A DNA stretch of 64,000 nucleotides, taken from positions 38,354 to 102,353 of the forward strand of contig CANIBP010000014.1 of NCBI GenBank assembly GCA_947466075.1, written 5' to 3'. The position numbers and the translations under genes were made by a program. The notes beneath the pieces were generated by a model. That model saw only the letters and a program-made list of their open reading frames with translations. It had not been told where the DNA came from and searched no databases. Positions 44,317 to 64,000 of this stretch are shown here, one piece after another. Source of the stretch: Verrucomicrobiaceae bacterium (GTDB lineage Bacteria; Verrucomicrobiota; Verrucomicrobiia; Verrucomicrobiales; Verrucomicrobiaceae). Numbering within the stretch: the first letter of the stretch is position 1; every line of letters starts with the position of its first letter.

Positions 44317-45353
44317 GCGACGCTGAGGTTCCAACACCACATCGCCGCCGTCCGCGTTACTCGGGCAAGAATCCAGTGCGTTTTGAGGACAAGTACAAGG
44401 AACTGAACCCGGAACTTCATGCCGAGACCATCGCGAAGGTGCGTGCGTCCGGCAAAACACCCGCCGGTCAACATGTGCCGATCCTTTTGAAGGAGATCAT
44501 GCAAATCCTCGCCCCGCAGCCCGGCGAACGTGCCGTGGACTGCACGCTCGGTTACGGCGGACACGCCAGCGCGCTGCTGGAAGCCGTGCAGCCCGGCGGA
44601 ACGTTGCTCGCGCTCGATCAAGACCCCATCGAGATCGTCCGCACCGAGGCACGGCTGCGTGCCAGCGGCTGTGAGAGCTACTCGCTCGTTGTGAAACGCA
44701 TGAATTTCGCCGGCTTGCCGCGTGCGCTCGCCGAACTCGACTGGAGCAATGGTGTGGACGTGCTGCTGGCCGATCTCGGTTGCTCCTCGATGCAGTTCGA
44801 CAATCCCGCCCGTGGTTTCAGCTTCAAACACAACGGCCCGCTCGACATGCGCATGAACCCGCAGCGCGGCATGGCAGCCCGTGATCTACTGCAAAAGCTC
44901 TCCGCTGCGAAGTTGAAGGTGATTCTCGAAGAAAACGCCGACGAACGTCACGCCGCGATGCTCGCCGATGCACTCGCAGGAATCGATCACGCCACCACAC
45001 GCTCGCTGGCCGAGGCAGTGCGCCGTGCTTTGCCCCATCGCATGGATGAGGAAGAACGCGAAACCACCGTGCGTCGCGTGTTTCAGGCCCTGCGCATCGC
45101 CGTGAACGAAGAATTCACCGCGCTCGATACTTTCTTGCATCAATTGACGAACTGCCTGCGCCCTGGTGGCCGTGTGGCTATTTTAACCTTCCACTCCGGT
45201 GAAGATCGTCGCGTGAAGCATCTCTTCCGCGATGCCTTGCGCGGTGGCGTCTTCAGCGAAGCCAACGATGAGGTGATCCGCCCGTCATCGCAGGAGATGC
45301 GTGACAATCCGCGTGCGGCTCCAGCGAAGTTGAGGTGGGCGGTGAAGGTCTGA
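44313..45353 (+). CDS. rsmH: 16S rRNA (cytosine(1402)-N(4))-methyltransferase
   Basis: VDCTLGYGGHASALLE, LLADLGCSSMQFDNPARGFSF, LTFHSGEDRRVK; GTG start overlapping previous stop. Confidence 0.95.
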   Translation: MSDAEVPTPHRRRPRYSGKNPVRFEDKYKELNPELHAETIAKVRASGKTPAGQHVPILLKEIMQILAPQPGERAVDCTLGYGGHASALLEAVQPGGTLLALDQDPIEIVRTEARLRASGCESYSLVVKRMNFAGLPRALAELDWSNGVDVLLADLGCSSMQFDNPARGFSFKHNGPLDMRMNPQRGMAARDLLQKLSAAKLKVILEENADERHAAMLADALAGIDHATTRSLAEAVRRALPHRMDEEERETTVRRVFQALRIAVNEEFTALDTFLHQLTNCLRPGGRVAILTFHSGEDRRVKHLFRDALRGGVFSEANDEVIRPSSQEMRDNPRAAPAKLRWAVKV

Positions 45354-45389
45354 ATTGACAGAAAGCTGGGAAACCAGCAAACTGGCTCC

Positions 45390-45650
45390 ATGAAAATGAC
45401 CCTCGACCTGCCTGGCGATCTCGTGCGTGAGATCAAGCTGCGCACCGTGCATGAAGGCGGCAAGCTCAAGGACACCATCGCCGAACTGCTGCGCAAAGGA
45501 CTGCGAGACCGTCCGGCGAAAAACGGCGCCAGGCCTAGCCGGGTGAAGCTGCCGCTCGTCCAATGCCGCCGTGCCGCCGTCCTGACCCCGGACCAGGTGG
45601 CCGCCGCGCTGCTCAAACAAGAGACCGAGTGGCATCATGACGCTGCCTGA
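45390..45650 (+). CDS. VapB-like antitoxin
   Basis: RHH-like N-term MKMTLDLPGDLVREIKLRTVHEGGKLKDTIAELLRKGL; overlaps PIN gene. Confidence 0.7.
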   Translation: MKMTLDLPGDLVREIKLRTVHEGGKLKDTIAELLRKGLRDRPAKNGARPSRVKLPLVQCRRAAVLTPDQVAAALLKQETEWHHDAA

Positions 45651-46080
45651 CACGAATCTTTGGCTGGCGCTGGCGCTTTCCAAGCACACGCATCACGCCG
45701 CTGCCAGCGCCTGGCTCGATGGCGAGGACAAAGCCGACAGCATCTTGTTCTGCCGCTCCACCCAGCAGTCGTTGCTGCGGCTGCTGACCACGGCGGGCGT
45801 CATGTCGCTGTATGGCATTCCGCCTTTGAGCAACAAGGATGCCTGGGCGGTTTACGAGGCTTTCATCGCGGATGACCGCATCGTGTTTCAACCGGAGCCG
45901 CCGGGTGTGGGAACGATCTGGAAAAAGTTCGCCGCACGGCGCACCACCTCACCTAAACTCTGGATGGACGCCTACCTCGCCGCGTTTGCCATGACCTCAG
46001 GCGCACAACTGGTGACGACGGATAAGGCGTTCAGCCAGTTTCCCGGCCTCGATGTGCTGGTAATCCAGCCTGCCGCGTAA
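45637..46080 (+). CDS. VapC-like PIN-domain toxin
   Basis: LPDTNLWLALALSKHTHH...LWMDAYLAAFAMTSGAQLVTTDKAF. Confidence 0.9.
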   Translation: MTLPDTNLWLALALSKHTHHAAASAWLDGEDKADSILFCRSTQQSLLRLLTTAGVMSLYGIPPLSNKDAWAVYEAFIADDRIVFQPEPPGVGTIWKKFAARRTTSPKLWMDAYLAAFAMTSGAQLVTTDKAFSQFPGLDVLVIQPAA

Positions 46081-46155
46081 GACATGTCGGAACAGACGGT
46101 GGATTGCTTCGAGATGACCGAGCAAAGACCGTCTTCAGCTTCGTATCAGTGAGCC

Positions 46156-49351: not shown

Positions 49352-49426
49352 TGGTGCGCGGAGAGGGATTCGAACCCCCGACCAACTCGGTGTAAACGAG
49401 CCGCTCTACCACTGAGCTATCCGTGC
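49352..49426 (-). tRNA. tRNA-Val (anticodon UAC), CCA encoded
   Basis: Minus strand GCACGGATAGCTCAGTGGTAGAGCGGCTCGTTTACACCGAGTTGGTCGGGGGTTCGAATCCCTCTCCGCGCACCA folds as a cloverleaf. Confidence 0.95.
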
Positions 49427-49517
49427 TTTATCGTTGATACTGAGGCGTTTGCGACGCTTTTCAGGATGCCACAAATCTCCGTTGATACTGATTTTGTATA
49501 CTCGTAGTCTCCACGGC

Positions 49518-50582
49518 ATGACAGCAGAGGAGAAAAGAGACCAAAAAGGACAGTGGATTCGGGTGGCACCATGTTTGTATCGCTACCGCAGCAGCGGCGT
49601 TTATTATGCCGTAGTGAGGCGCTCTGGCAAGTTGATCCGCCGGAGCCTTGAAACAAACGTCATCGAAGTCGCCAAACGGAAGCTGCGGGACTTCCTGGGC
49701 GAACAGGAGCACGCCGCTTCTGATGCGCACAAAACCTACCTCGATGTCCACATGAAGGAGTTCCTGGCAGGAAGGACCGGAGCCCCGAAAACCCTGAAAC
49801 GCTACCGCCAGCTCACGGACCATGTGTGCGCGAACTGGCCCGGTGGTTCCCATCAGGTTCTCGCCAAGGTGGATCATAGCCAGTGCTCCAAATGGCTGAG
49901 CCAGTGGAATGGCAAGGTGGCGGCCTACAATCATGCCCGGCAGTGGTTGCTGGCCTTCTTTGACTTCGCGACCGCCAACCGCAAAATCCAGAGGTCACCG
50001 ATGGACAAGCGCCTGGTCAAGGCCATGCGACGCCCGCAGGTGATCCGCAATGCGCCCACCCCTCAGGAGTTCGAGGCCATACTGACAGAGGTGCGGGCGC
50101 AACCCTTCACGGACCATGCGGATGATTCTGCGGATGTCCTGGAGTTCATGGGCCGGGCTGGTGTTGGGCAGGCGGAGACATCCGGCCTCAAGTGGGAGCA
50201 CATCAACTTCAAGGACGAAACCATCAAGCTCTTCCGAGTCAAAACACAGACCTCATTCCAGATTCCCCTATTCGCCAAATTACGACCGTTGCTCGAAAGG
50301 CTCAGGGCGGAGAATCCCGATGCGTCTGCTTCTGAGAAAGTCTTCAAGATCAGCGATCCCAAAAAAGCGCTGGCCACGGCATGCAGGAATCTCAAGCTGC
50401 CCGCGTTTTCCGCCCGCTCATTCCGCCGGATGTTCATCATCGACGCCCTCAAGAAAGGCATTGCCGTGAAGCGCATCAGCCGATGGCAGGGACACAAGGA
50501 TGGTGGCGTGCTTATATTGAAGACTTATTCCGAAGTGATCGAACAGGAGGACGACCGGGAAGCCGCGAACCTCTTGGCGTGA
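49518..50582 (+). CDS. Tyrosine-recombinase-type site-specific integrase (non-canonical catalytic set)
   Basis: FSARSFRRMF, WQGHKDGGVLILKTYSEV; SAM-like N-terminal domain; adjacent to tRNA. Confidence 0.8.
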   Translation: MTAEEKRDQKGQWIRVAPCLYRYRSSGVYYAVVRRSGKLIRRSLETNVIEVAKRKLRDFLGEQEHAASDAHKTYLDVHMKEFLAGRTGAPKTLKRYRQLTDHVCANWPGGSHQVLAKVDHSQCSKWLSQWNGKVAAYNHARQWLLAFFDFATANRKIQRSPMDKRLVKAMRRPQVIRNAPTPQEFEAILTEVRAQPFTDHADDSADVLEFMGRAGVGQAETSGLKWEHINFKDETIKLFRVKTQTSFQIPLFAKLRPLLERLRAENPDASASEKVFKISDPKKALATACRNLKLPAFSARSFRRMFIIDALKKGIAVKRISRWQGHKDGGVLILKTYSEVIEQEDDREAANLLA

Positions 50583-50809
50583 TGCAAATCGACACCTTTG
50601 TCGCCTCCTCTGGTATCGCTTGCCTCATCCTCGATACATAAAGCCACTTCCGCCGTCCGCATCCTGACCGCATGGCGGAACTGCTGGCGTGACTCTATTT
50701 GGGCGTAAACTTTCTCACCTTCACCCCTCCCTTGCTGTAGCAGGTCTATCTGTTGGGTGTTCTGGCCCGTAGAGGTAGGCGAAGCTTTGCATGGGACGAA
50801 AAGCCATAG

Positions 50810-50922
50810 GATGTGAGTATCACATCGATATGCCCTGATTCCAAAACCGGGGGTGATACTAGGCGAACTGTGAGTAGTAGTCACAGTTCAGCTTTGCCTT
50901 TATTCCAAAACCGGGAGGTGAT
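50810..50922. repeat. Two tandem units of (TGTGA/TCACA palindrome + attccaaaaccggg(a)ggtgat)
   Basis: Palindromes at 50810-50826 and 50865-50889; direct repeat at 50838-50857 and 50902-50922. Confidence 0.85.
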
Positions 50923-50954
50923 TTTGCCGTATTGTCGCTTCTCGTTAGTTCCAG

Positions 50955-51401
50955 ATGATGACCATCTCAAAATCCTGTTCTAGTCCTGGTTGCGAAGCGA
51001 CGAGTGGCGATGTCGCGTTCCAGTTGTATGACGGCATACCACTCTGCCCCGACCATTATCGACAAAAGATTAAGTGTGACCTCATGAACCAGTTCGAGGC
51101 ATGGCATCAGGGAACTGACCCGCCTCAGCGATTCAAGTATCTGTTGGGCAGGGTATCCCATGAGGAGGATTGGCCCATGAAAGGGGGCAGCTACCTGAGC
51201 AGGGCAAGAATTCGCGACCGAGGTTACGCATTCGAGAAAACACCCTGTGGTTGCCGCTTTTGCATTACGCGTCATCCAGGAGCATTCAAAAACGGCTATG
51301 TGGAAAAGAAGGTTGTAGAAACCTGGAGCGCCGATCTGCAAGCTGAGACGCTCACATTGATCGCATGCAGGAATTGGACCGCTGAAGACCCGGACCTATA
51401 A
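50955..51401 (+). CDS. Hypothetical Cys-rich protein
   Basis: CSSPGCE...CPDHY...CGCRFCITRH cysteine pairs. Confidence 0.6.
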   Translation: MMTISKSCSSPGCEATSGDVAFQLYDGIPLCPDHYRQKIKCDLMNQFEAWHQGTDPPQRFKYLLGRVSHEEDWPMKGGSYLSRARIRDRGYAFEKTPCGCRFCITRHPGAFKNGYVEKKVVETWSADLQAETLTLIACRNWTAEDPDL

Positions 51402-51650
51402 AGGTTCCGCCTCCGCAACATCGAAAGGCAGGTTGAAATACCCGAACACCGCCTTGGTTCGTTCGAAGATCTGGCGCTCGCTCATTCCGGCACGTTCACA
51501 CATCTCGTTCATCGGCACAAAACCACAGCTGATGAACTGCACCACCTCCAAGGGATTGATCTGCACCTGGACTTGTGGCTTTCCTGGACCTTGAGCGCAT
51601 CCAGTGAATCAAGGCAGCACATCACCATCATCATGAGGTTCTCGGTGTGT
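51396..51650 (-). pseudogene. Frameshifted coding remnant on minus strand
   Basis: SSHTENLMMMVMCCLDSLDALKVQ in one frame and GPGKPQVQVQINPLEVVQFISCGFVPMNEMCERAGMSERQIFERTKAVFGYFNLPFDVAEAEPL* in the next; no intact ORF. Confidence 0.4.
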
Positions 51651-51714
51651 GACGACACCAAGGGGGTCTCAAAAAAATGCTTGATCGTTTATCAAAGCAG
51701 CCTGTTCTCTAAAA

Positions 51715-52302
51715 ATGCAGAAGCACAAATTGGAACTCCCAACAGCGCCACCAGTCACAGGACGAGTTCCGCAGCTACCCCAACGAGTCCAAATTATTGA
51801 TGACACCAAGGATTCGGTTGCACAAAAGCCAGTCTCATTGCCACAAGCAAAAGAGATCGGTGTTGCTGTCGTTGGGCATGACAATCCAGAATTCGACGAA
51901 GCCACGGCTCAACGAATTGGTGATCTTCTGCAAGAGTTTATTGTTGGCTTGGACAGCAAAAAGAGGTTCGACGACGCCTTGGTCATCGCCAGACTGCATC
52001 GCAAGGTGCAGCCGCAAAATTTGACGGGCTACTATACTGAAGCGTTGATGCTTTTCAGCTTAGGCCGTTATGACGAGGCAAGGGGAGTCCTTTTGAATGC
52101 ACCCGAAGCCGTGTGGGATTATCCACAGTTTCACCACAATATGGCGTGCATTGAGGTTGGCTTGGGGAAACTCCCCGCAGGGTTGGAGCATGCGACAGCG
52201 GCAGCGCGGCTGAACAAAAACGCGCTGCGTGAAATGCTCAAAGACCCAGATCTCAAACCAATCTGGGTGCCCCTCAAACAAAACACGAAGGATATTCGAT
52301 AA
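51715..52302 (+). CDS. Hypothetical TPR-like protein
   Basis: ALVIARLHRKVQPQNLTGYYTEALMLFSLGRYDEARGVLLNAP...AGLEHATAAARLN helical-repeat-like. Confidence 0.6.
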   Translation: MQKHKLELPTAPPVTGRVPQLPQRVQIIDDTKDSVAQKPVSLPQAKEIGVAVVGHDNPEFDEATAQRIGDLLQEFIVGLDSKKRFDDALVIARLHRKVQPQNLTGYYTEALMLFSLGRYDEARGVLLNAPEAVWDYPQFHHNMACIEVGLGKLPAGLEHATAAARLNKNALREMLKDPDLKPIWVPLKQNTKDIR

Positions 52303-52375
52303 CGGCTGCCTAGTGGTATCCAAGCCGGAGCGAAAATAATGTGCCCATTTCCGTTTTTCTCGACATGCTGGCAGA

Positions 52376-52999
52376 ATGGACTCCCACAGTTTGATCGAAG
52401 ACAATTTGCCTCTTGCCGAATTGATCGCGCTGGAATATGCGAATATTCCTGGCAGCAGCGTGGATGACGCAAGGTCTGAGGCCCACATGGCATTGATGCG
52501 GGCTGCCGATGCTTACGATTCAGAAAAAGGTGAGTTCATAAATTTTGCGTCTCGGGTGATGAGGAACGCGCTCAATTCCTTGTATGCCAAGCAACTGCGA
52601 TATGCACGCATATTCCCCAAGTCCCTGGAAGACCCGGTCGATTGGAGCAAGCTCAGAATGGCCAGAGGAACCAATGGCAGTTCTGACCAACTCCAACCGA
52701 GTGATCCCAAACAGGATGTGCTCAAAGAGGTTCGCAGACAGGAAACTTTGGCGGCTTTGGGTGCTGTTTTGAATCTGCTTTCTCCTCGCGAGCGTTTGCT
52801 GGTGGACGCGCTTAGAAATGGAAGCAGCTATGCAGAGATTGGCGAAAATTTGGGGGTAACCAAGCAGGCAGCTCACAAAGCTGTGAAATCAGGCATTGCC
52901 AAGCTGCGTGAGGGGCTTGCAAGGATGGGGTATCGCGGACTTGCCTCCGATGGGCACTTGGATTCGGGCGAAAAAAACAATGCACGCCAGAGCGGTTGA
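52376..52999 (+). CDS. RNA polymerase sigma-70 family factor
   Basis: Region 2 AHMALMRAADAYDSEKGEFINFASRVMRNALNS; region 4 LLSPRERLLVDALRNGSSYAEIGENLGVTKQAAHKAVKSGIAKLR. Confidence 0.85.
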   Translation: MDSHSLIEDNLPLAELIALEYANIPGSSVDDARSEAHMALMRAADAYDSEKGEFINFASRVMRNALNSLYAKQLRYARIFPKSLEDPVDWSKLRMARGTNGSSDQLQPSDPKQDVLKEVRRQETLAALGAVLNLLSPRERLLVDALRNGSSYAEIGENLGVTKQAAHKAVKSGIAKLREGLARMGYRGLASDGHLDSGEKNNARQSG

Positions 53000-53038
53000 C
53001 GTTTTTACGGCTGGTTTGTATAAAGAATTAAACCGCTC
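52990..53038 (+). promoter_or_regulatory. Sigma-70-type promoter TTGACG-N17-TATAAA within GAGCGGTT...AACCGCTC inverted repeat
   Basis: -35 at 52996-53001, -10 at 53019-53024, 17-bp spacer; IR arms 52990-52997 and 53031-53038. Confidence 0.7.
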
Positions 53039-53058
53039 CCCCCTCAACAATCGAAACT

Positions 53059-54060
53059 GTGAATCCGCAGCAAGACAGCTCACAAAACCTATATCTTGTC
53101 CATCACGCGGGGCAGGTTCAAGGGCCGTTCGACCTCGATTTCGTTGAAGCGATGGTGATGTCGGGTGTTTACGCGCCCACCGTCATGATTCAGAAGGTTG
53201 GAACCAATTCGCAAGTTGCGTTTCCTCAGGTGATTCGATCCAAGTCAGGATTGCCCCCACTCAGTCAAGGAGCCGCCCGTGCAGTCCAAAAAGAAACGAG
53301 CAGTGCTGTGCTTGCGCCAGCAACACGCATTCCAGAATCCAGACATCAATCCACACCACAGACTGGCATAACCGACTCAAAGCCGCTGAGCATTGAGGCA
53401 AAACTTGCATGGGTCATTTGCATAACCGCTGGTCTGTTTCTCTTCTGGGTTTTTGAAGAGGTCTCCTCAAAAAGAACATCTCCACCAAAACAAACTGCGG
53501 CTGCTCCCTCAGCTGATAATTCGTGGAGCCAGAATCAGCCTCAACAGACGGTGCCACCACAAACCAAACCGGTGATTTCACAGCCTGTTTACACTCCTCC
53601 TGCTCCAATCTACACGCCCCCCGCTCCACTGACATACACCCCACCTCCTTCACCACTATCCTCTGGGTTTCCTACAACTTCATACCCGAGGTCACCTTCA
53701 GTCGCGACACCGGGAACCGCATCAGAAGAATCGACTCAAATTTATCGTGACGCCTCCGGGCGCATGTTCCGCGTTCCAAACTCGGCCTACTACGGGCTGC
53801 TCTCAAAGAAAACGGCGCTGGAATCGGAAAAAACAGCTTTGGACCAAGCTGAGACTGAACTCAGTGCTCTTGGCGCTGACATTGATCGCTCACGTCGCTA
53901 CCTGGACCGCACCAGCCAATATTCGATTGATTCGTTTAATCAAAAAGTGAATCGGGTCAACGAAATGAGCAATCGCCTTCAGGATGCAACGGATGCCTAT
54001 AATCGGGGAGTGGATGCCTTTAACACCGAGTTGGCGAGGGTCGGCACACCCATCTACTAA
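53059..54060 (+). CDS. GYF-like domain, TM, Pro-rich linker and C-terminal coiled-coil protein
   Basis: NLYLVHHAGQVQGPFDLDFVEAMVMSGVYAPTVMIQKVG; TM WVICITAGLFLFWVF; PPAPIYTPPAPLTYTPPPSP; GTG start. Confidence 0.7.
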   Translation: MNPQQDSSQNLYLVHHAGQVQGPFDLDFVEAMVMSGVYAPTVMIQKVGTNSQVAFPQVIRSKSGLPPLSQGAARAVQKETSSAVLAPATRIPESRHQSTPQTGITDSKPLSIEAKLAWVICITAGLFLFWVFEEVSSKRTSPPKQTAAAPSADNSWSQNQPQQTVPPQTKPVISQPVYTPPAPIYTPPAPLTYTPPPSPLSSGFPTTSYPRSPSVATPGTASEESTQIYRDASGRMFRVPNSAYYGLLSKKTALESEKTALDQAETELSALGADIDRSRRYLDRTSQYSIDSFNQKVNRVNEMSNRLQDATDAYNRGVDAFNTELARVGTPIY

Positions 54061-54066
54061 CAGCTC

Positions 54067-55164
54067 ATGGCAATTCTCTCCGAAGGCCAAAACATTCGCG
54101 ATACCTACGAGGTCGAAAGATTTCTGGGCGAAGGTGCCTTTGCGGAGGTTTTCCGCGTGCGGCACCGCTTTCTGGGAAGACAGGCGATGAAAGTGTTCAA
54201 GGGCGCTGGTATGACCTTGCCCGACATTGAGGACATGCTCGGGGAGGCGATCATGCTGTCGAAGATCGGCCATCCAAATATCGTTCGTGTGTTCGATGCC
54301 AATACCGTTGAAACTCCCAAGGGACTTTATGGCTACTTCACCATGGAAAACGTTCCGGGCGGTAGCCTGGATAAATTCTGGCAATCGCATGGTACGGAAT
54401 TTGTCCCGTTGGCAACAACGGTCGATATAATCAAGCAGGTTTGTCGTGGGCTTTCGGTGGCTCACCGTGAACAACCGCCCATTGTGCATCGCGACATCAA
54501 GCCACAGAACATACTGGTCGGTTACGAGACGGATGGATTGCGAGCGCGTGTCAGCGACTTTGGCTTGGCGAAGCGGGTCAATCCACTAACTCTGCTTGCG
54601 ACTGCCGCTGGCACGATCAGTTTTAAACCGCCAGAGGCGTTTACAGAAAGCAAAGGTGACTCTTGTGCTGCCGATGTCTGGGCCATCGGCACCACGCTCT
54701 ACCTGCTGCTCACCGACCAGTTGCCCTACAAGTACCCTACAGATCTGGGATGGGGCAGCAAAGACCTGTTCAAAGAAGAGATTCGCCCAGCTTCGGAATT
54801 GAATGCCGATGTGAATGCCGCTTTGGATGCCATCATCACGCGATCATTGAGCTTCAGGCCGGCGGACAGATTTCAAAATGCCATGGAAATGCTTGATGCG
54901 TTGGAGCGCTGGAGGCCGGGGCATGGCACCGCTTCTTCCAAACAACTTGCAGCCGATGTGTCCAAAGCCGCATTGGGCACCGCTCACTCATCACCCAATC
55001 AGGTGATGGCAGAGCAGATGGCCCTTCAGTCCATTGAACTCAAAAAGCAGGGGCGTCTCTCAGCTGCGGCAGATGTGATGGAGGAAGCCTTCAACAAGTG
55101 GCCTGATCTTCGTCAAAAATACGCCCCGCAAGTGCGTCTCTGGCGGTGCGGCATTTCCATGTAA
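54067..55164 (+). CDS. Serine/threonine protein kinase
   Basis: LGEGAFAEVFRV, MKVFK, VHRDIKPQNIL, SDFGLAKR. Confidence 0.92.
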   Translation: MAILSEGQNIRDTYEVERFLGEGAFAEVFRVRHRFLGRQAMKVFKGAGMTLPDIEDMLGEAIMLSKIGHPNIVRVFDANTVETPKGLYGYFTMENVPGGSLDKFWQSHGTEFVPLATTVDIIKQVCRGLSVAHREQPPIVHRDIKPQNILVGYETDGLRARVSDFGLAKRVNPLTLLATAAGTISFKPPEAFTESKGDSCAADVWAIGTTLYLLLTDQLPYKYPTDLGWGSKDLFKEEIRPASELNADVNAALDAIITRSLSFRPADRFQNAMEMLDALERWRPGHGTASSKQLAADVSKAALGTAHSSPNQVMAEQMALQSIELKKQGRLSAAADVMEEAFNKWPDLRQKYAPQVRLWRCGISM

Positions 55165-55174
55165 GTCCAATTTT

Positions 55175-57241
55175 ATGAGTCAGCCCACAGGAACAAATGA
55201 ATGCGCACCCCTTTTGGAGGCTTGCACACTCGAACTGTACCAGAAGAACATTTTCCGAATCACCGGGTTGCCAGTCGATGCCACCCCCAAAGAGGTTGCT
55301 AAGCAGGCTCAAAGATTACAGATGATGATGGAGGAGGGCATGGAAGGAACTGCGGCCGGTGCCAAAGCCGCTTTCCCTTTGGCCCCACCACCGACCACTG
55401 AGCAGATACGTGATGCCTTGGCGCGGATGAAGGAACCTGAGCATCGACTGGTGGATGAATTCTTTTGGTATTGGCCCGAAAAGTTTGGCTCCAGCAAGGA
55501 AGACATCTCCATTCAAGCTTTACTCGCCGGAGACGCACAGAAGGCCATCGAGGTTTGGGGGGAACGAGAAAGTGAGGGGTCTTTCGCAGCTCAGCATAAT
55601 CTAGCCATCATGTTTCACATGTTTGCGGTCGATTGGACCAATCACCATGTGGCATATGAACTTGACGCTGGACGCGATGAGACAATCATGAGCTACTGGC
55701 GTGATTCCTTCGAGCGCTGGGAGGCGTTGGTCGATTCGGATGAACTCTGGGAAGTGCTCAAAGATCGAGTACGCTCTCTCGAAGATGAGGCGCTGACCAC
55801 GGGATTTGTGCGCAGAATGCGTCGGCTGCTCCCACAAGCATTGGATCGGGTCAATGCTGAGGCTGCTCTAAAGTTTGCGGAGCAGGGCCGAATGGATTGG
55901 GCAAAATTCCATGTGGACTTCATGCGGCAGACCAACCAGGGACAAGATGACGTGGAAAGCACAGCAGAACTGGTGTTGACACCCATACGAAAACGAGTTG
56001 ATCAACAACTAAAGTCAGCTCAAACGCAGTCTGAAAGAAAACCCGATCAAGGCACGCAACTCGCCTCTGATCTCATGATCGCGTCAACACCTCTGATGGG
56101 TATTTATGATCTCTTTCATGGCGATGAAGCACACCAACGAAATGATCTTTTCGACAGTGTTGCGGAGACTGTGGCAAATTTGCTGGTCGCACATCAAAAG
56201 GCTACAGGAGACAATCAAACCTTTGTGGAATTGTTGAAACAGGCCCTCCAGTTCGCCTCCGGCATGCACATTCGAGAGCGCTTGATGAGAAATATCGCGA
56301 TTGGCGAGAACAACCTTGCTGGTGAGCAACTTGAGCCAATCTTCAACTCTCTTCGCACAATCAAAGAAAGCTCTCTCGGTCCGGCACAAAAACTACAGCA
56401 AGTTCAGCGAACAATCATGACGCAACTGCCGTCATGGGCGTCAACCCTGGGGCCAAGCTCCGAGACTTACAACAATCTTGTCAATACTGTTGCCATCACT
56501 TTGCGCGAAATATCAATCGCGGCTCATAACGATGGAAGCGATTCAGCAACGGCGGCGGCAGCCATCAATTTGGCATTAAAATTAGCAACCGATCCCGATC
56601 TCAAAAAGCGTATGATGGATGATCGGAGCACGCTAGAGAAGATTTTTAACGAGCAAAAGCAGTGGGATAGAACGATCAAAATTAGATCCGATGAGTTTGA
56701 GGTGACTCAGAGTTTTGTGCGCTACAACGGAACTCAAATTGCCGCCGCAAACATTACCGGGCTTCGGTTCGGAATTTTTACCCAGGTCGTAAATGGGATT
56801 GCAAGCACATCATATTTAATTGGCGTTCGCGGGCGAGATGATTCGATTTCGGTAGAATGTAAGCGGTTTTTTCGGAGTGACGCGCAGGCCCAAGCAGACT
56901 TCACTTCAATACTCGAATCTCTGTATCATCAAATTCTCCCGAATTACGTAACGATGCTTGCAGAATATATCACGTCAGGAAAGCGAACGGTTCAAGTTGG
57001 ACCCCTGTTGCTTACAAAGACCGGTGTGAGTTGCGAAACGGGTTCGTTGTGGTGGAAAAAAGAACTTCTAATTCCTTATCGGAACTTTGGCTTCAATGAT
57101 TACCAAGGGCATGTCCATGTATCTGCTGAACACCCTGAGAAAATTCATTTTGCACTGAGTCGCAGAGACGTTTGGAATGCCGTAATCATTGAAAAGTTAG
57201 TTGAAATTATAAATCTTATCCAAGCTGGTGGCACCAAATAA
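55175..57241 (+). CDS. Large protein with degenerate J-domain-like N-terminus and PH-like C-terminus
   Basis: NIFRITGLPVDATPKEVAKQAQRLQ...TTEQIRDALARMKEPEHRLVDEFFWYWP; no HPD motif. Confidence 0.55.
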   Translation: MSQPTGTNECAPLLEACTLELYQKNIFRITGLPVDATPKEVAKQAQRLQMMMEEGMEGTAAGAKAAFPLAPPPTTEQIRDALARMKEPEHRLVDEFFWYWPEKFGSSKEDISIQALLAGDAQKAIEVWGERESEGSFAAQHNLAIMFHMFAVDWTNHHVAYELDAGRDETIMSYWRDSFERWEALVDSDELWEVLKDRVRSLEDEALTTGFVRRMRRLLPQALDRVNAEAALKFAEQGRMDWAKFHVDFMRQTNQGQDDVESTAELVLTPIRKRVDQQLKSAQTQSERKPDQGTQLASDLMIASTPLMGIYDLFHGDEAHQRNDLFDSVAETVANLLVAHQKATGDNQTFVELLKQALQFASGMHIRERLMRNIAIGENNLAGEQLEPIFNSLRTIKESSLGPAQKLQQVQRTIMTQLPSWASTLGPSSETYNNLVNTVAITLREISIAAHNDGSDSATAAAAINLALKLATDPDLKKRMMDDRSTLEKIFNEQKQWDRTIKIRSDEFEVTQSFVRYNGTQIAAANITGLRFGIFTQVVNGIASTSYLIGVRGRDDSISVECKRFFRSDAQAQADFTSILESLYHQILPNYVTMLAEYITSGKRTVQVGPLLLTKTGVSCETGSLWWKKELLIPYRNFGFNDYQGHVHVSAEHPEKIHFALSRRDVWNAVIIEKLVEIINLIQAGGTK

Positions 57242-57261
57242 ACTCAAACTACCATTCCACT

Positions 57262-57753
57262 ATGAACGTCCCTGATTCGCTCTCAATACCGCAGGTTCAA
57301 ATGCCTGATCCCCGTCAATTTGCGAATGATCTGATTCAGGCGGCGGTTGCAGCCACGAATTCCAATCGAAAAGATCCAAGCAGCGATCTCAATGAACAGG
57401 GCCTTGTGAAAGCTTTGATAGCTGTCGCTAACCAAAGTTGGCGTATGGGTAGCGCCTTGATTGATGCTGAAACATCAGAGCCGAAAGCAAACCTTACACC
57501 CCAAGACATACGTAAACTTTCCAACGCCTTGGACGCAATACGTGAATGCATTCAAGGACTTGGTCTCAAGGTGATTGATCGAACAGGTGAAGCCTTTGAT
57601 TCGGGTTTGCCCGATCAGGTGGTGACTGAAGAACCTCAAGAAGCCATTAGCAAAGAACGGATCATTCGCACGATTAGACCCACCATCATGTGGAACCAGA
57701 CGATGGTTCAACGGGGCGAGATCGACATTGCCGTACCAACATCCAAGAAATAA
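57262..57753 (+). CDS. GrpE-like nucleotide exchange factor
   Basis: C-term GLKVIDRTGEAFDSGLPDQVVTEE...TIRPTIMWNQTMVQRGEIDIAV resembles the GrpE beta-domain; directly upstream of Hsp70. Confidence 0.6.
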   Translation: MNVPDSLSIPQVQMPDPRQFANDLIQAAVAATNSNRKDPSSDLNEQGLVKALIAVANQSWRMGSALIDAETSEPKANLTPQDIRKLSNALDAIRECIQGLGLKVIDRTGEAFDSGLPDQVVTEEPQEAISKERIIRTIRPTIMWNQTMVQRGEIDIAVPTSKK

Positions 57754-57766
57754 CAATCATAACAGC

Positions 57767-60256
57767 ATGAGCAGAAGCACCATTGACTTTGGAATTGATC
57801 TTGGAACTACGAATAGCGCCATCGCTGTTCTGAACGGAATTGAACCTCAGATCATCAAGAATTCGGACGACCAAGATGTAACCCCTTCAGCGGTTTTTAT
57901 CAACAAACAGGGGCTGGCATTTGTTGGAACGAGGGCGAAAAATGCGTTGGCCAGCGAGCGCAATCATGGAGATGCTTATGTCGAGTTTAAACGACAGATG
58001 GGGACGCCTCACCTTTATGATTTTGCTTCAAGCGGGCAGCGCAGAAAACCAGAAGAATTGTCTGCTGAAGTATTGAAAGCGATGCGTGCCTCTGGTGAGG
58101 CTAAGACCGGAGAGGTGATTCAGTCAGCGGTGATCACGGTGCCTGCGGCGTTCGAACTGCACCAATGTGATGCCACTCGACGTGCTGCTGAGTTGGCTGG
58201 TTTCACTGCAAGTCCGCTTCTCACCGAGCCAGTAGCCGCAGCTCTGGCTTACGGCTTCCAGATCGATTCTGAGAAGGCGTATTGGCTGGTTTATGATTTT
58301 GGTGGAGGGACTTTTGACGCCGCCTTGATCAAGGCGAATGAAGGGATGATCAATGTGGTGCATCATGGTGGCGACAATTTTCTTGGTGGCTCCGATATTG
58401 ATTGGTCCGTGGTGGAAAAACTTGTTATCCCGCAGCTCACAAAAAACTTCAACCTGCCGGGCTTTGCTCGTGGATCAGAGCGTTGGGGGACAGAGATGAA
58501 GCGCCTCAAGCACGCGGTTGAGACGGCGCGCATCGAGCTTTCCATCAAGGACAAGACAACTTTGAGTGGAGGGATCGCCTTTGAAGATGCCACGGGAAAC
58601 ACCATCGAATGCGATGAGATTGTGCTGAGCCGTAACGATATTATTGCTGTTGCTGAACCAATCATTATGCGGTCAGTAGAAATTTGTTGTCGAGTGCTCA
58701 AGGAAAAAAATCTTAGCACGCAGGCCGTGCAAAAAGTGATTGTGGTAGGGGGGCCAACCAAGGCCCCCTACTTCCGAGAAATGCTCAACGCAGGCTTGGG
58801 CATCCCCATCGACTTTAGCCAAGATCCGTTGACTGTAGTTGCTCGCGGAGCTGCTGTTTTCGCAGGCACTCAAAAAGTGGACTCAAAACTACAGAAGAAA
58901 GCGGCGGCAGGAGAATTTCAGGTCAATATTTCAGATAGTTACAAGCCGGTGGGGCACGAAATTGATCCCTTGATCGCCGGCAAAGTGATGAATCCAACTG
59001 GAGAACCTATAGTTGGATTCACGCTTGAGTTTGTTAATCGCGATACCAAGTGGCGCAGTGGACAAATTCCGCTGAACGCAGAGGGTGCTTTTATGGCAAA
59101 TTTGCTGGCTGAGAAGGGTTCGCGAAACACGTTTCACATCGAAATTGCAGACCGCCACGGCACGATACAAAAAGCCGTGCCTGACCATGTAGTTTACACG
59201 ATTGGAGCCGTGATCGAAGAGCAGCCATTACTCAAATCCATCGGCTTAGGTCTTGCGGATGGAACCGTTGAGTGGTTTTTCAAGGCTGGTTCTGGTCTTC
59301 CGCAGAAAAAACGAGGAGGAAAAGCATACAGGACCACGATTGCCTTGAAAACAGGACAACCAGGCGAGCCAGTTCGCATTCCAGTTTTTGAAGGTGAGAA
59401 TGAACTTGCGATGCGAAATCGGGAAGTTGGAGCACTAGAGATTGATTCGTCAATGGTGCGTCGCGACCTCCTGGCAGGGGCAGAGGTCGAAGTGACACTG
59501 AAAGTCACTGAATCCCGAACAATTAAACTGGAAGCCTATTTTCCGCTCTTGGACGAAGAATTCAAAAAGGATCTGAAGATCGAAAAGCAGGAGGCTGATG
59601 CGACGTTGATTGCTGCAACGCTGAGGGAAGAGAAGGCGAGGCTCGAAGAGCTTAAACAAAAAGCCGAACAAGCTGGAGATGCGGCCGTCCTCGATGAGTT
59701 AGAGAAACTGGAATCTGATCGGGAACTTGTTGATGCCGTGCGCGCAGCCAAAGGAGATCCTGCAGCCGCAGAGAAGGCGCAAAAGAGGCTTTTGGATCTG
59801 CAGCTTCAACTCGATGCTGCACAGGAAAAGTTGAAATGGCCCACGCTTATCGCGGAAGCCAAGGAGCTTCAGGGAGAGCTTCAAGAACTGGCCTCAAGAC
59901 ATGGAAATAGCGGCCAGAAAGACAAAGCAGAGGACTGGTCTGATGCTGTGGAATCAATCATCGCGAAGAAACAGACAGATCGGCTAGCGAAAAAAATTGA
60001 GGAGGGCCATTCCATTTATGCACAAATTCTATTTTCAATCCCTGCTTACTGGGTGGGCCAGTTTCAACGTATGGAAGGTGAGAAGCACAAATTTAGGGAC
60101 TCAGATGCAGCAGAACGTTTGTTTGAGCGTGGTAGGAGCTATCTCCAGCAAAACAATGTGGAGGGACTTACCGATGTTGTGAGGAAACTTTGGAATCTCC
60201 TTCCCAAAGATGAAGCCGAGAAAGCACAAAGCGGAATTGGGTCAACCATTCTCTGA
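57767..60256 (+). CDS. Hsp70/DnaK-family protein with inserted beta-sandwich-like segment
   Basis: FGIDLGTTNSAIAVL, VPAAFELHQCDATRRAAELAGF, YDFGGGTFDAAL, VVGGPTKAPYFREML; C-terminal coiled coil. Confidence 0.92.
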   Translation: MSRSTIDFGIDLGTTNSAIAVLNGIEPQIIKNSDDQDVTPSAVFINKQGLAFVGTRAKNALASERNHGDAYVEFKRQMGTPHLYDFASSGQRRKPEELSAEVLKAMRASGEAKTGEVIQSAVITVPAAFELHQCDATRRAAELAGFTASPLLTEPVAAALAYGFQIDSEKAYWLVYDFGGGTFDAALIKANEGMINVVHHGGDNFLGGSDIDWSVVEKLVIPQLTKNFNLPGFARGSERWGTEMKRLKHAVETARIELSIKDKTTLSGGIAFEDATGNTIECDEIVLSRNDIIAVAEPIIMRSVEICCRVLKEKNLSTQAVQKVIVVGGPTKAPYFREMLNAGLGIPIDFSQDPLTVVARGAAVFAGTQKVDSKLQKKAAAGEFQVNISDSYKPVGHEIDPLIAGKVMNPTGEPIVGFTLEFVNRDTKWRSGQIPLNAEGAFMANLLAEKGSRNTFHIEIADRHGTIQKAVPDHVVYTIGAVIEEQPLLKSIGLGLADGTVEWFFKAGSGLPQKKRGGKAYRTTIALKTGQPGEPVRIPVFEGENELAMRNREVGALEIDSSMVRRDLLAGAEVEVTLKVTESRTIKLEAYFPLLDEEFKKDLKIEKQEADATLIAATLREEKARLEELKQKAEQAGDAAVLDELEKLESDRELVDAVRAAKGDPAAAEKAQKRLLDLQLQLDAAQEKLKWPTLIAEAKELQGELQELASRHGNSGQKDKAEDWSDAVESIIAKKQTDRLAKKIEEGHSIYAQILFSIPAYWVGQFQRMEGEKHKFRDSDAAERLFERGRSYLQQNNVEGLTDVVRKLWNLLPKDEAEKAQSGIGSTIL

Positions 60257-60264
60257 TTTCGACC

Positions 60265-60684
60265 ATGTCGAGTTTGCCAGACCAGCCCCAAACCGCGGTC
60301 AGCCGCATCGTAGAGCGTTTTGAGGACCGTCTGCGAATCGCACGTGCTATGGAGATGGCTTCAAGCAAACGCCTGCTGGAAGCTGAGGCGCTATTGTGTC
60401 CCGGAGGCATGATGCCACAATCAGCGGACGGGCTGGACCTCCTGGCTCGAATCTATGTGCAACAGGGGCGTTTTGATCTTGCGAGGCGGCGTTGGGAGGA
60501 AGCTTTGAAGTTGGGTGGACGCCTAGTTGAATTTGAGAATTGTCTCAAAGTTCTCGATGCTTACACAGGGCAGGTTTTTCGACGCCGTCTAATGATCTGG
60601 AAAATCACGCTGGTCTTATTGATAGCAACGCTGCTGATCTGTGTAGGAGTTCATCTAAATCTTCTGTCTGCTCAGCCAAAGTGA
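60265..60684 (+). CDS. Small TPR-like protein with C-terminal TM anchor
   Basis: ADGLDLLARIYVQQGRFDLARRRWEEALKLGG; TM ITLVLLIATLLICVGV. Confidence 0.6.
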   Translation: MSSLPDQPQTAVSRIVERFEDRLRIARAMEMASSKRLLEAEALLCPGGMMPQSADGLDLLARIYVQQGRFDLARRRWEEALKLGGRLVEFENCLKVLDAYTGQVFRRRLMIWKITLVLLIATLLICVGVHLNLLSAQPK

Positions 60685-60693
60685 TCGACTGCC

Positions 60694-63108
60694 ATGAGTT
60701 CCAAATCGCTACGCCATTCCGACTCCCTACTGATTGCTTGGCGGTTGGCTGAGCTTGAGGCGGCTAACCTTCACTGTGCCGAGTTGGAGCCTGAACACTA
60801 TTTTCTGGCTCTTCTCAAACTGGTGGAATTGGATGTGGCAGCCATCCTGGCCGAGAACACGACGCTCTCCGATCAGCTTATCCAACAGGAAGTTTGTTCA
60901 GTCCTAAAATTAGCTTCCTGCCTTGCAACGGCGGGTTTGGAAACAACTCAAATCAGGCGTCGATTGCGAAGGGCTCTCCCTCGTGGTTCCAAGTCAGAGA
61001 AGGTGGACACACATCTCAGGCGGAGTGGACTTTCGCGGGAGGTCTTTGCCGAAGCCGATCAGGTGGCGGCACAAACGACGTGTGAAATGATCGAGCCACT
61101 GCACCTGCTTGCTGGCATTGTGATGGTTTCCGGTCCCTGGCTGCTGAGCGTTTTGGATCAAGCGGGTATTGCGGCGGGAGATTTCTCCGAAGCGGTGCTG
61201 ACTGCACTGCAAGGAGCTGCGGTGGAACAGGCAGGCCCCAGCGAAGCAAAGCCTCCACAAGCACATCACCAGCCAGACAAACAACTGAACAAGCGAAAGC
61301 CTGCGAACAATCTGGTGGATAGACTGGGGCGCGACCTGACTGCACTAGCTCGGCAGGGAGAACTATCGCCGGTGATTGGTAGAAAGGAGGAGATGCGCTC
61401 TCTGATTCAGACGCTGCTACGGAGCCGGAAAAACAATGCCATTCTCATCGGTGAAGCTGGAGTGGGAAAGACAGGGGTCGTCGAAGGTCTGGCCCAACGA
61501 ATTGCCAAGGGGGAGGTGCCTCCCGAGTTTGCTAGAAAGCGCATCATCGAGATTTCGATGGGGAGCCTTGTTGCCGGAACCAATCTGAGGGGTGACATGG
61601 AGGCACGCCTGCAAGTCCTGATTGCTGAGGCGAAACGTGATCCTGATCTAATCCTCTTTATCGACGAAATCCACCTGATGGCTGGAGCTGGGCAGGGATC
61701 TGGGGCCATGGATGCTGCCAATTTGCTGAAGCCAGCCCTAGCCCGTGGCGAAGTGTGTGTCATTGGAGCGACAACAACGCAGGAATATCGCAAGCATATT
61801 GAAGTTGATCCTGCTCTAGCGCGGCGGTTTGAAGTGATTGAAGTCTTGGAGCCAGATCGCACCGAAACGATTGCCATCCTCCAAGGATTAAGATCCAACA
61901 TAGAAGCCCATCACGGTGTTAAAATTGAAGATGGGGCAATGGATGCGGCGGTGGATTTGACCGTGCGCTATCTTCCCGCGCATCGTTTGCCAGACAAGGC
62001 AATTGATGTCTTGGATCAGGCCTGCGCCCAAGCCAGGCTACGGTCATTGTCAGGTGATTTTAGAGCGCTGTTTAAAGCTGGACTTTCAATCACACGGAAG
62101 GATGTGGCTGCTGCTGTGGCGCACCGTTGCAAGGTGCCAGTGGGTGAACTGACCGAAGACGATTCGGCACGACTGCTGCGGCTGGAAGCCGATCTCGAAA
62201 AGCGGGTGAAGGGGCAACGTCGAGCCATTGAGGCGGTGAGCGAGGCGATTCGTCTGGCGCGGTCTGGCCTCAAGCAAGGAGGAAGACCCATCGGAGTGTT
62301 TTTGTTTGCTGGCCCCAGTGGCACAGGAAAGACTGAGCTCGCCAAGGCACTGGCCGAATGTTTGTTTGGAAATGAGAAGCAGCTCATTCGGATCGATATG
62401 TCTGAGCTTATGGAGGCGCACAGCGTATCAAAACTGATTGGGGCACCGCCCGGATTCATCGGCCATGACCAAGGCGGACAGCTCACGGAGCAAGTCAGAA
62501 GCCAGCCCTACAGCGTGGTTTTACTGGATGAAGTGGAGAAGGCGCACCCGAAGATTTTGGATATTTTCCTCCAAATTTTCGATAATGGATTCATCACCGA
62601 TTCCCACGGTGTTCGCTGCGATTTTCGTGAGACGATCATCATTCTCACTTCGAACGTTGGAGCCGTCGGGAAAAAGGCTGCAATCGGATTCCAAAAAGAG
62701 GGCAAAGAGGCAGCTCCAGATAAGGAACTCAGCCAAACCATCCTTGCCGAGGCAAGAAAACTTTTTCGCCCAGAATTCATCAACCGTTTAACAGACATCG
62801 TGGCCTTTCAGCCGCTCGGTCACGATGAAGTGAAGCAGGTTCTCGCGTTGACTATCGCTCGCCTAAACGGACGCCTGAAGGACAAAAACATCGTCCTCGA
62901 ACTCACCCCTACAGCAGAAGCCATGCTCATTGCTCAGGGGTATAGCGAGGAATATGGAGCACGTCATCTCGAACGCACAGTGGAACGCTTGATCTCAAAG
63001 CCCCTTGCCGAATTGATCTTGGCCGACAAAGCTGCAGCAGGTTCTCACATATTATGCAATGAGCAGGATGGCCGCATTTTCATGCAGCACTCGGCTGGGT
63101 CCCGATAA
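60694..63108 (+). CDS. Clp-family AAA+ unfoldase (Clp-N plus two AAA modules, ClpA/ClpC-like, no M-domain)
   Basis: GEAGVGKT/LILFIDEIH; GPSGTGKT/VVLLDEVEKAH; GAPPGFIGHDQGGQLTEQVR. Confidence 0.92.
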   Translation: MSSKSLRHSDSLLIAWRLAELEAANLHCAELEPEHYFLALLKLVELDVAAILAENTTLSDQLIQQEVCSVLKLASCLATAGLETTQIRRRLRRALPRGSKSEKVDTHLRRSGLSREVFAEADQVAAQTTCEMIEPLHLLAGIVMVSGPWLLSVLDQAGIAAGDFSEAVLTALQGAAVEQAGPSEAKPPQAHHQPDKQLNKRKPANNLVDRLGRDLTALARQGELSPVIGRKEEMRSLIQTLLRSRKNNAILIGEAGVGKTGVVEGLAQRIAKGEVPPEFARKRIIEISMGSLVAGTNLRGDMEARLQVLIAEAKRDPDLILFIDEIHLMAGAGQGSGAMDAANLLKPALARGEVCVIGATTTQEYRKHIEVDPALARRFEVIEVLEPDRTETIAILQGLRSNIEAHHGVKIEDGAMDAAVDLTVRYLPAHRLPDKAIDVLDQACAQARLRSLSGDFRALFKAGLSITRKDVAAAVAHRCKVPVGELTEDDSARLLRLEADLEKRVKGQRRAIEAVSEAIRLARSGLKQGGRPIGVFLFAGPSGTGKTELAKALAECLFGNEKQLIRIDMSELMEAHSVSKLIGAPPGFIGHDQGGQLTEQVRSQPYSVVLLDEVEKAHPKILDIFLQIFDNGFITDSHGVRCDFRETIIILTSNVGAVGKKAAIGFQKEGKEAAPDKELSQTILAEARKLFRPEFINRLTDIVAFQPLGHDEVKQVLALTIARLNGRLKDKNIVLELTPTAEAMLIAQGYSEEYGARHLERTVERLISKPLAELILADKAAAGSHILCNEQDGRIFMQHSAGSR

Positions 63109-63117
63109 CGTCCAAGT

Positions 63118-63681
63118 ATGTCTGAGAAGCGCAAAATACTAATGCCGGAAGCCCCTCCAGATTGGAAGGCAACGACGATAAGTGACAGTGCCAAAAAAAG
63201 TGGTGCAGATGCTCCCACACAGTCATTTTCAACAAAGCCAGCTACAAAATCAATACCACCGCCGCTGCCGAAGTCGCAAAACGATAAAAATGCGAATAAT
63301 AAGCCACCAGAAAGCCTCGTCTCAGTACCACCGCCGTTACCCTCAGCAACTCCAAGCAGAGAAAACAAAAGTATTCCGCCGGAGTTGTTGGACGTTACGA
63401 ACCGAGAGTTCACCGTAAAGATGGGCGGTTTTTTCTTTGGTGATAAGTACCGGCTCACTGTGAAGGACTCCACACTCTCCTTTGTAAATCTCAAGAGTGG
63501 ATTTGAAATCACTTTCGACCCTGCCAATGAGTTTCATGATTTTACGCTTAGGAATCCTTGGACCTCAGGCTCTGATGAGCATGTTATAATTGAAACAAAA
63601 AAGCGTGAGCGATTTGCTTTCACAATTCCTGTTAAGGCATGGCCGACGCTTCGGGATTGGTGGAAACGAATGAAGCCGTAA
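63118..63681 (+). CDS. Hypothetical Pro-rich N-term protein with C-terminal PH-like domain
   Basis: SIPPPLPK, SVPPPLPS repeats; FTVKMGGFFFGDKYRLTVKDSTLSFVNLKSG beta-rich C-term; 9-bp gap from Clp gene. Confidence 0.55.
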   Translation: MSEKRKILMPEAPPDWKATTISDSAKKSGADAPTQSFSTKPATKSIPPPLPKSQNDKNANNKPPESLVSVPPPLPSATPSRENKSIPPELLDVTNREFTVKMGGFFFGDKYRLTVKDSTLSFVNLKSGFEITFDPANEFHDFTLRNPWTSGSDEHVIIETKKRERFAFTIPVKAWPTLRDWWKRMKP

Positions 63682-63852
63682 CATTATCGCGCTATAAGCT
63701 CTTCAGTGCTGCATTATAACGACAAGTAGGAATACACAGAACACGAAGTTGGCGTGGCCTAAAATTTGGAGTTCGATCAGTACCGATTCCGTGAAGCGCA
63801 AAATAACTAGGGCGAAGCTCCGCCACCTCTTGAAGGTGACGGAGCCATGAGT

Positions 63853-64000
63853 GTAAACGTCATGGTAACGACCGTGGGATCGAGCTTGGAACGGGGTGCG
63901 TGGGGTAGCAGGGATGTCCCACGTTATGGACAACCAACTCACGATTTTGAAACGGGACGCACGCGGCCGTGTGCGCAGCACGGCTGAGGCGCGGGCGGAA
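63853..64000 (+). mobile_element. Putative left end of IS66-type insertion sequence (truncated by window)
   Basis: gtgtaaacgtcatggtaacgacc terminal-like sequence followed by accessory transposase ORF start. Confidence 0.45.
63926..64000 (+). CDS. IS66-type accessory protein (TnpA-like) N-terminus, truncated by window
   Basis: MDNQLTILKRDARGRVRSTAEARAE reads open to the window end. Confidence 0.5.
   Translation, partial: MDNQLTILKRDARGRVRSTAEARAE

Follow-up and report, generated by a model that had tools for sequence, protein, structure and literature searches.

A recurrent, mobile, kinase-containing Hsp70 gene module with an apparently altered J-domain interface on a tRNA-Val-integrated island of a Verrucomicrobiaceae bacterium

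The stretch of DNA analysed here, referred to as the window, comprises 64,000 nucleotides of a Verrucomicrobiaceae genome and carries an island next to a tRNA-Val gene. Its genes and features are as follows, with coordinates counted from the first letter of the window.

49352..49426, minus strand: tRNA-Val (tac), the integration target (ARAGORN).
49388..49422, no strand: attL core, 35 bp inside the tRNA-Val, identical to attR on contig C5 at 150646-150680 (blastn and pairwise alignment).
49518..50582, plus strand: tyrosine recombinase (integrase), Pfam PF00589 8e-9; a longer TTG form starts at 49434.
50955..51401, plus strand: small ORF with no assigned function, missing in the G011 copy.
51715..52302, plus strand: TPR protein (Pfam TPR 1e-4, below the curated cut-off), within a 12.4-kb block common to G011.
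52376..52999, plus strand: sigma-70 family factor (Pfam sigma-70 r2/r4, a firm match).
53059..54060, plus strand: protein with a GYF-like domain, one transmembrane (TM) segment and a Pro/Ser-rich region (Pfam GYF_2 E 0.035, weak; hydropathy 2.02 at aa 114).
54067..55164, plus strand: Ser/Thr protein kinase (Pfam 3e-39), catalytic residues intact, tail LWRxGIxM.
55175..57241, plus strand: J-like protein of 688 aa with a degenerate J domain (aa 12-106) bearing the signature DEFFWFWP, a helical scaffold to aa ~500 and a variable C-terminus.
57262..57753, plus strand: GrpE-like protein (Pfam GrpE 0.0055, weak).
57767..60256, plus strand: Hsp70 of a separate ~830-aa clade (Pfam HSP70 5e-70), with nucleotide-binding domain (NBD), inserted beta domain, substrate-binding SBD-beta and a long helical C-terminus.
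60265..60684, plus strand: TPR protein with a C-terminal TM anchor (hydropathy 2.59 at aa 109).
60694..63108, plus strand: Clp unfoldase with a Clp_N-like region (aa 1-180), two AAA+ modules (AAA_2 1e-60), no M-domain and an IGF loop at aa 664 (62683-62691).
63118..63681, plus strand: Pro-rich protein, present in the window and G011 only.

The first-pass annotation had described a near-gapless chaperone operon between an integrase-bearing tRNA-Val site and a Pro-rich protein. ORF calls, ARAGORN and Pfam recover its genes, domains and order, the tRNA-Val, the integrase and the preceding sigma factor, and the intergenic gaps of 6, 10, 20, 13, 8, 9 and 9 bp are reproduced from the ORFs when the Hsp70 starts at the ATG at 57767. 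The label ‘PH-like’ for the last protein is backed by no tool, and this protein has no BLAST similarity to the C-terminus of the J-like protein. The integrase probably starts at the ATG at 49518. Within the island the GC content is 0.47-0.53, down from ~0.59, and a scan for sigma-70 promoters gave no match above chance. The gene set is accessory, as first proposed, because the same genome also encodes canonical DnaK, GrpE–DnaJ, ClpB and ClpC. Elsewhere in the window, a VapBC-like pair read from the sequence (45341-46134; ribbon-helix-helix-like antitoxin at 45390-45650, PIN-like toxin at 45637-46080) sits between two core genes as a precise insertion of ~0.8 kb, and the same site lacks the pair in genomes G017 and G011.

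The island is a mobile element integrated in a tRNA gene, with an integrase, attL and attR, and an empty site. The latter is found in G017, where the left side corresponds to the attL flank and the right side to the attR flank. An extent of 49430-63700 had been proposed; the location at tRNA-Val holds, but the element is larger and continues on another contig. The window ends where contig C14 ends, and the right half, ~15.7 kb with attR, lies on contig C5. The two contigs were bridged because the XRE–ImmA and PIN genes found at the C5 end directly follow the island in G011. This second half (L127, C5:150500-166314) encodes an HTH_17 excisionase-like protein, an 838-aa protein without Pfam match, and sliding-clamp-like, WGR/DNA-ligase-like, DUF932, C39-like peptidase, AbiEi-like antitoxin, XRE-ImmA and PIN proteins; no conjugation gene was found among the ten C5 proteins scanned.

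Positions 51418-63853 of the window (12.4 kb) are 96.6% identical to a block in Prosthecobacter sp. VE4 (G011), as against only 79% for the core grpE–dnaJ DNA of the two genomes, and the block appears to have been transferred recently. The G011 block and the G011 tRNA-Val site lie on different contigs. Two other relatives, G002 and G013, are closer to the window at grpE–dnaJ (83%), yet in them the kinase-bearing island is missing and all that is present is a divergent trio, J–GrpE–Hsp70 or J–small-protein–Hsp70. The J-like protein is present in 4 of 56 relatives and in 6 of 388 genomes of the phylum. Searches of phage, plasmid and viral-contig collections returned no match to the module, the kinase being compared with plasmids at a strict limit only.

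A scan of GTDB contigs yielded 59 loci from about ten phyla, as inferred for each contig: Verrucomicrobiota, Planctomycetota, Desulfobacterota, Nitrospirota, Chloroflexota, Bacteroidota, Acidobacteriota, Omnitrophota, Actinomycetota and a gammaproteobacterial bin. The recurrent order is kinase–J-like–GrpE-like–Hsp70–TPR/TM(–Clp). The kinase is upstream of the J-like gene in 37 loci: directly 5' of it in 34, usually with a gap of 10-50 bp, and as kinase–GrpE–J in three more. J, GrpE and Hsp70 follow one another in 38 of the 59. A sigma factor homologue precedes the operon in seven other loci, including the G011 copy, GYF-protein homologues occur in six, and no further gene family recurs in more than five loci of the neighbourhood survey. 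Whether the order would recur in other genomes had been posed as a check on the initial proposal, and it is found in dozens, far beyond chance. The idea that unrelated chaperone genes merely accumulated on an island, which islands as collectors of cargo would allow, has next to no chance of being correct; it is refuted by this recurrence in distant phyla and sits badly with the parallel loss of contact residues in the J-like protein and Hsp70 described below. In one locus (L031 6498-17926, Akkermansiaceae M30B22), a full sigma-GYF-kinase-J-J-GrpE-Hsp70-TPR-Clp series with a tandem J-like pair contains many frame breaks, which point to a copy in decay or to errors of sequencing.

In some of the loci without a kinase the contig is truncated, while others, including most of those in Actinomycetota, truly have no kinase nearby; J-GrpE-Hsp70 or J-Hsp70 sets without an adjacent kinase are found in most Actinomycetota and in G002, G013 and G153. 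The kinase is thus not obligatory in the wider family. Where present, it is better conserved than any other component, most identities across phyla being 50-79% in a 31-member alignment. The PknB-type catalytic residues (Lys, HRD and DFG) are invariant in these 31 members, and the C-terminal tail ends in LWRxGIxM in most. Phospho-signalling genes adjoin it in some loci: in Nitrospira (L043), the kinase is immediately preceded by a PP2C gene, with an FHA-GAF sigma-54 activator gene also just upstream, and in a Phycisphaerae bin (L046), PP2C is inside the operon. Separately, contig C5 of the source genome (G000) encodes at 78021-85133 (L126 3022-10134) a protein of 1861 aa that combines an FHA-like N-terminus with a GrpE segment; the gene after it is Hsp70-like (496 aa), and the two are possibly a second link between phospho-signalling and Hsp70.

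The J-like protein matches no Pfam family over its 688 residues, and Pfam DnaJ is absent from the families listed for 48 J-like members. Its N-terminal ~95 residues follow the pattern N-[AI]-F-R-x-[TL]-G-[LV] … [RK]-[DE]-P-x-x-R-x-x-D-E-F-F-W-F-W-P. None of 46 J-like sequences has an HPD between helices II and III; apparent HPDs in L062 and L072 precede helix I and lie outside the loop. A fold search with the full model matched only TPR and designed repeats. For the N-terminal fragment on its own, AlphaFold (AF2) gave a model at pLDDT 83 with helices in J-domain order, and Foldseek placed J-domain proteins from the PDB at ranks 1-26, at weak E-values of at least 0.3. The N-terminus is accordingly predicted, by this model, to have a J fold. 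Confident prediction extends over the helical part to residue 500. Beyond it the C-termini vary (zinc-ribbon plus TM, HEAT, Sel1 and one cyclophilin), the pattern that exchangeable targeting modules would give, and we read some of them as a PH-like beta domain. Two TPR-type J-like proteins from kinase-less J-Hsp70 loci (L007 8300-10642 and L027 1729-3936) share their C-terminal domain with the window protein at 55175-57241; that of L007 is 55% identical to it, although the Hsp70s of these loci reach only ~32% identity with that of the window. C-terminal domains appear to be exchanged between J-like proteins.

The Hsp70s of island type are ~830 aa long and form, in an NBD tree, a clade of their own apart from DnaK, HscA, HscC and YegD, with support of 0.93-0.996 along the separating branches. 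The window protein scores below the cut-off of each curated family (DnaK 243 vs. 823; HscA 202 vs. 709; PRK11678, i.e., YegD, 47 vs. 331). In the DnaJ-DnaK pair, D35 of the HPD bonds R167 and Q378 of DnaK (PMC8215388). These receiving and relaying residues are replaced in the island clade, R167 by P in 37 of 46 sequences and Q378 by F in 43, as are further DnaK signal residues (D148→L in 37, N170→Q in 42 and D481→S in 41 of 46). The catalytic residues D8, K70, E171 and T199 are retained. The J-like and Hsp70 sides have thus lost the HPD contact in parallel. The hydrophobic NBD–SBD linker gives way to a longer insert, which we read from the alignment as an extra beta domain.

The GrpE-like protein of the window scores 16.8 bits with the GrpE profile, under the Pfam cut-off of 25.8, and 11 of its 35 homologues match GrpE weakly at E<0.05; aligned with the host GrpE by hhalign, it gives an E of 1.7e-4. 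PDB profile searches with the GrpE-like and J-like families returned nothing useful. Most homologues of the TPR-TM protein keep the TM segment.

A full Clp protein is encoded in the window, G011, L031 (with a broken frame), L036, L041 and L043. All six Clp sequences that cover the loop (the window and five others) have an IGF after a TSN motif. The M-domain is absent from intact island-type Clps, and the spacing between Walker A motifs is 287, vs. 402 in the host ClpB. Among the controls, the host ClpB has an M-domain and no IGF, and the host ClpC has LGF at that position. By these motifs the island unfoldase is ClpA/ClpC-type, not ClpB-type, with its IGF loop in the second AAA+ module. The host encodes ClpP, and coupling of the unfoldase to it may be read from this one short motif. 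About ten loci carry instead a lone Clp_N-like protein in the Clp slot; in Ca. Magnetominusculus (L044 15731-16870), a Clp_N-like domain in this slot seems, as read from the sequence, to be joined to a domain resembling class III nucleotide cyclases. The type VI secretion ClpV was considered and rejected: the TssH model gives 650 bits against a cut-off of 885, and no T6SS genes were seen.

Several known systems resemble the island in part. Like the DnaK-DnaJ-GrpE-ClpB bichaperone, it encodes Hsp70, J-like, GrpE-like and Hsp100 parts together. However, its Hsp70 falls outside the DnaK clade, the HPD and its receptor residues are lost, its Clp lacks an M-domain and has an IGF, and its operon includes a kinase and membrane proteins. 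The claim of a complete DnaJ-GrpE-DnaK-Clp copy holds with qualifications: there is no HPD in the J-like protein, the Hsp70 does not belong to DnaK, the unfoldase resembles ClpA/ClpC and not ClpB, and many relatives have no motor but only its N-domain. In HscC-DjlB/DjlC, too, a divergent Hsp70 of sporadic occurrence has dedicated co-chaperones linked to the membrane; unlike the island Hsp70, HscC keeps R167, N170 and Q378, and its system has neither kinase nor Clp. HscC has been reviewed as having no GrpE signature (PMC8215388), and the A7 profile gave no match to DjlC. In E. coli YegD/YegI, an Hsp70-like gene also adjoins a Ser/Thr kinase gene, but the two are on opposite strands, the 450-aa YegD is far off in the tree, and there is no J, GrpE or Clp; published work on YegI/YegD gave no further clue.

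The transmissible locus of stress tolerance (tLST) is, like the island, a mobile protein-quality-control island with an Hsp100 (PMC8290217). The initial view that the two differ is borne out: no ClpG/ClpK, sHsp20 or FtsH is found among the island proteins, which include instead an Hsp70 set and a kinase. An analogous role in stress tolerance, with the island adding disaggregation or refolding capacity under heat or oxidative stress, can draw on the chaperone and Hsp100 cargo, the dedicated sigma factor and the tLST precedent (PMC8290217). We consider it improbable given the missing small Hsp, FtsH and ClpG/ClpK (555 bits with NF033607 and 549 with NF033606, vs. cut-offs of 1900), an unfoldase unlike ClpB in its absent M-domain and its IGF, and the lack of the motor in many relatives.

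GAP1-N2 systems, some with HSP70, GrpE and DnaJ/TPR and others with kinase and PP2C (PMC7159879), share these themes with the island, which might then be a branch of the GTPase-centred conflict systems of Kaur et al. 2020. This is very unlikely: neither the island proteins nor the recurrent operon include a GTPase, order and parts differ, and the recurrent kinase-J-GrpE-Hsp70-TPR-Clp unit is not described in PMC7159879.

A defence function against phages or mobile elements, in which the kinase would sense infection and the chaperone/unfoldase would remodel or degrade a viral or host target, seems to us about as unlikely as stress tolerance. Carriage on an integrative element, patchy distribution and recent transfer speak for it, the best PADLOC scores of the kinase are with the mad6 and PD-T4-6 models, and a few neighbours of the homologues match defence models. 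Yet no PADLOC system is complete, the kinase and AAA matches are generic, neighbours at more than 40 loci are mostly housekeeping genes, among which defence families turn up just one or two at a time, and the module is missing from the phage, plasmid and viral collections. A distribution that is patchy and mobile is compatible with defence as well as with niche-stress cargo, and the neighbour scan does not favour defence. Model scores and Clp motifs rule out tLST, the ClpB bichaperone, T6SS and the PADLOC systems. No named operon type matches, in line with the first-pass annotation: in searches of PADLOC, NCBIfam and an open-access literature library we found no description of the module. The GAP1-N2 systems and tLST come closest, and the island lacks defining features of each.

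What the sequences establish is that the Hsp70 module is conserved and mobile, includes a kinase and has lost the HPD interface in a coordinated way. From this we infer the phosphorylation targets, the ClpP hand-off, membrane recruitment through the TM proteins, the client and the biological role. The reading we prefer, to which we give an even chance, is a dedicated Hsp70 machine on an integrative element, gated by the kinase, recruited to the membrane, triggered without HPD and feeding ClpP where the motor is present. In such a machine, the island sigma factor (or the FHA-GAF sigma-54 activator in Nitrospira) would switch the operon on, and the TPR-TM and GYF-TM proteins would keep the assembly at the membrane. 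The J-like scaffold would select a client or site through its variable C-terminus, while its J-like domain would dock on the divergent Hsp70, with ATP hydrolysis set off otherwise than by the HPD-R167/Q378 contact. Phosphorylation of the J-like, Hsp70 or GrpE-like protein by the island kinase may replace or gate the HPD trigger, and the GrpE-like protein would reset the nucleotide. In loci that have the AAA+ motor, the unfoldase with its Clp_N domain would take over the client and could pass it to the host ClpP via the IGF loop; in loci without the motor, the stand-alone Clp_N protein may recruit a host Clp.

In all Hsp70 systems tested so far, HPD changes abolished J-domain stimulation (PMC8215388). 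A large natural clade without either half of the HPD contact, which keeps the ATPase residues and the predicted J-like fold, raises the question of what other trigger an Hsp70 can use. Loci with either a full AAA+ unfoldase or just a Clp_N protein provide natural separations of function, and the frequent partner kinase, with PP2C or FHA neighbours in some loci, suggests a bacterial Hsp70 machine under direct phospho-control. More tentatively, and at less than even likelihood, the family may represent a further class of bacterial Hsp70 machine, which would have dropped the HPD trigger on both sides of the interface in favour of phosphorylation by its own kinase, so that the cycling of Hsp70 would become an output of signalling. 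Its clients would be unfolded at the membrane by a private ClpP-coupled unfoldase, and the module as a whole would move between phyla.
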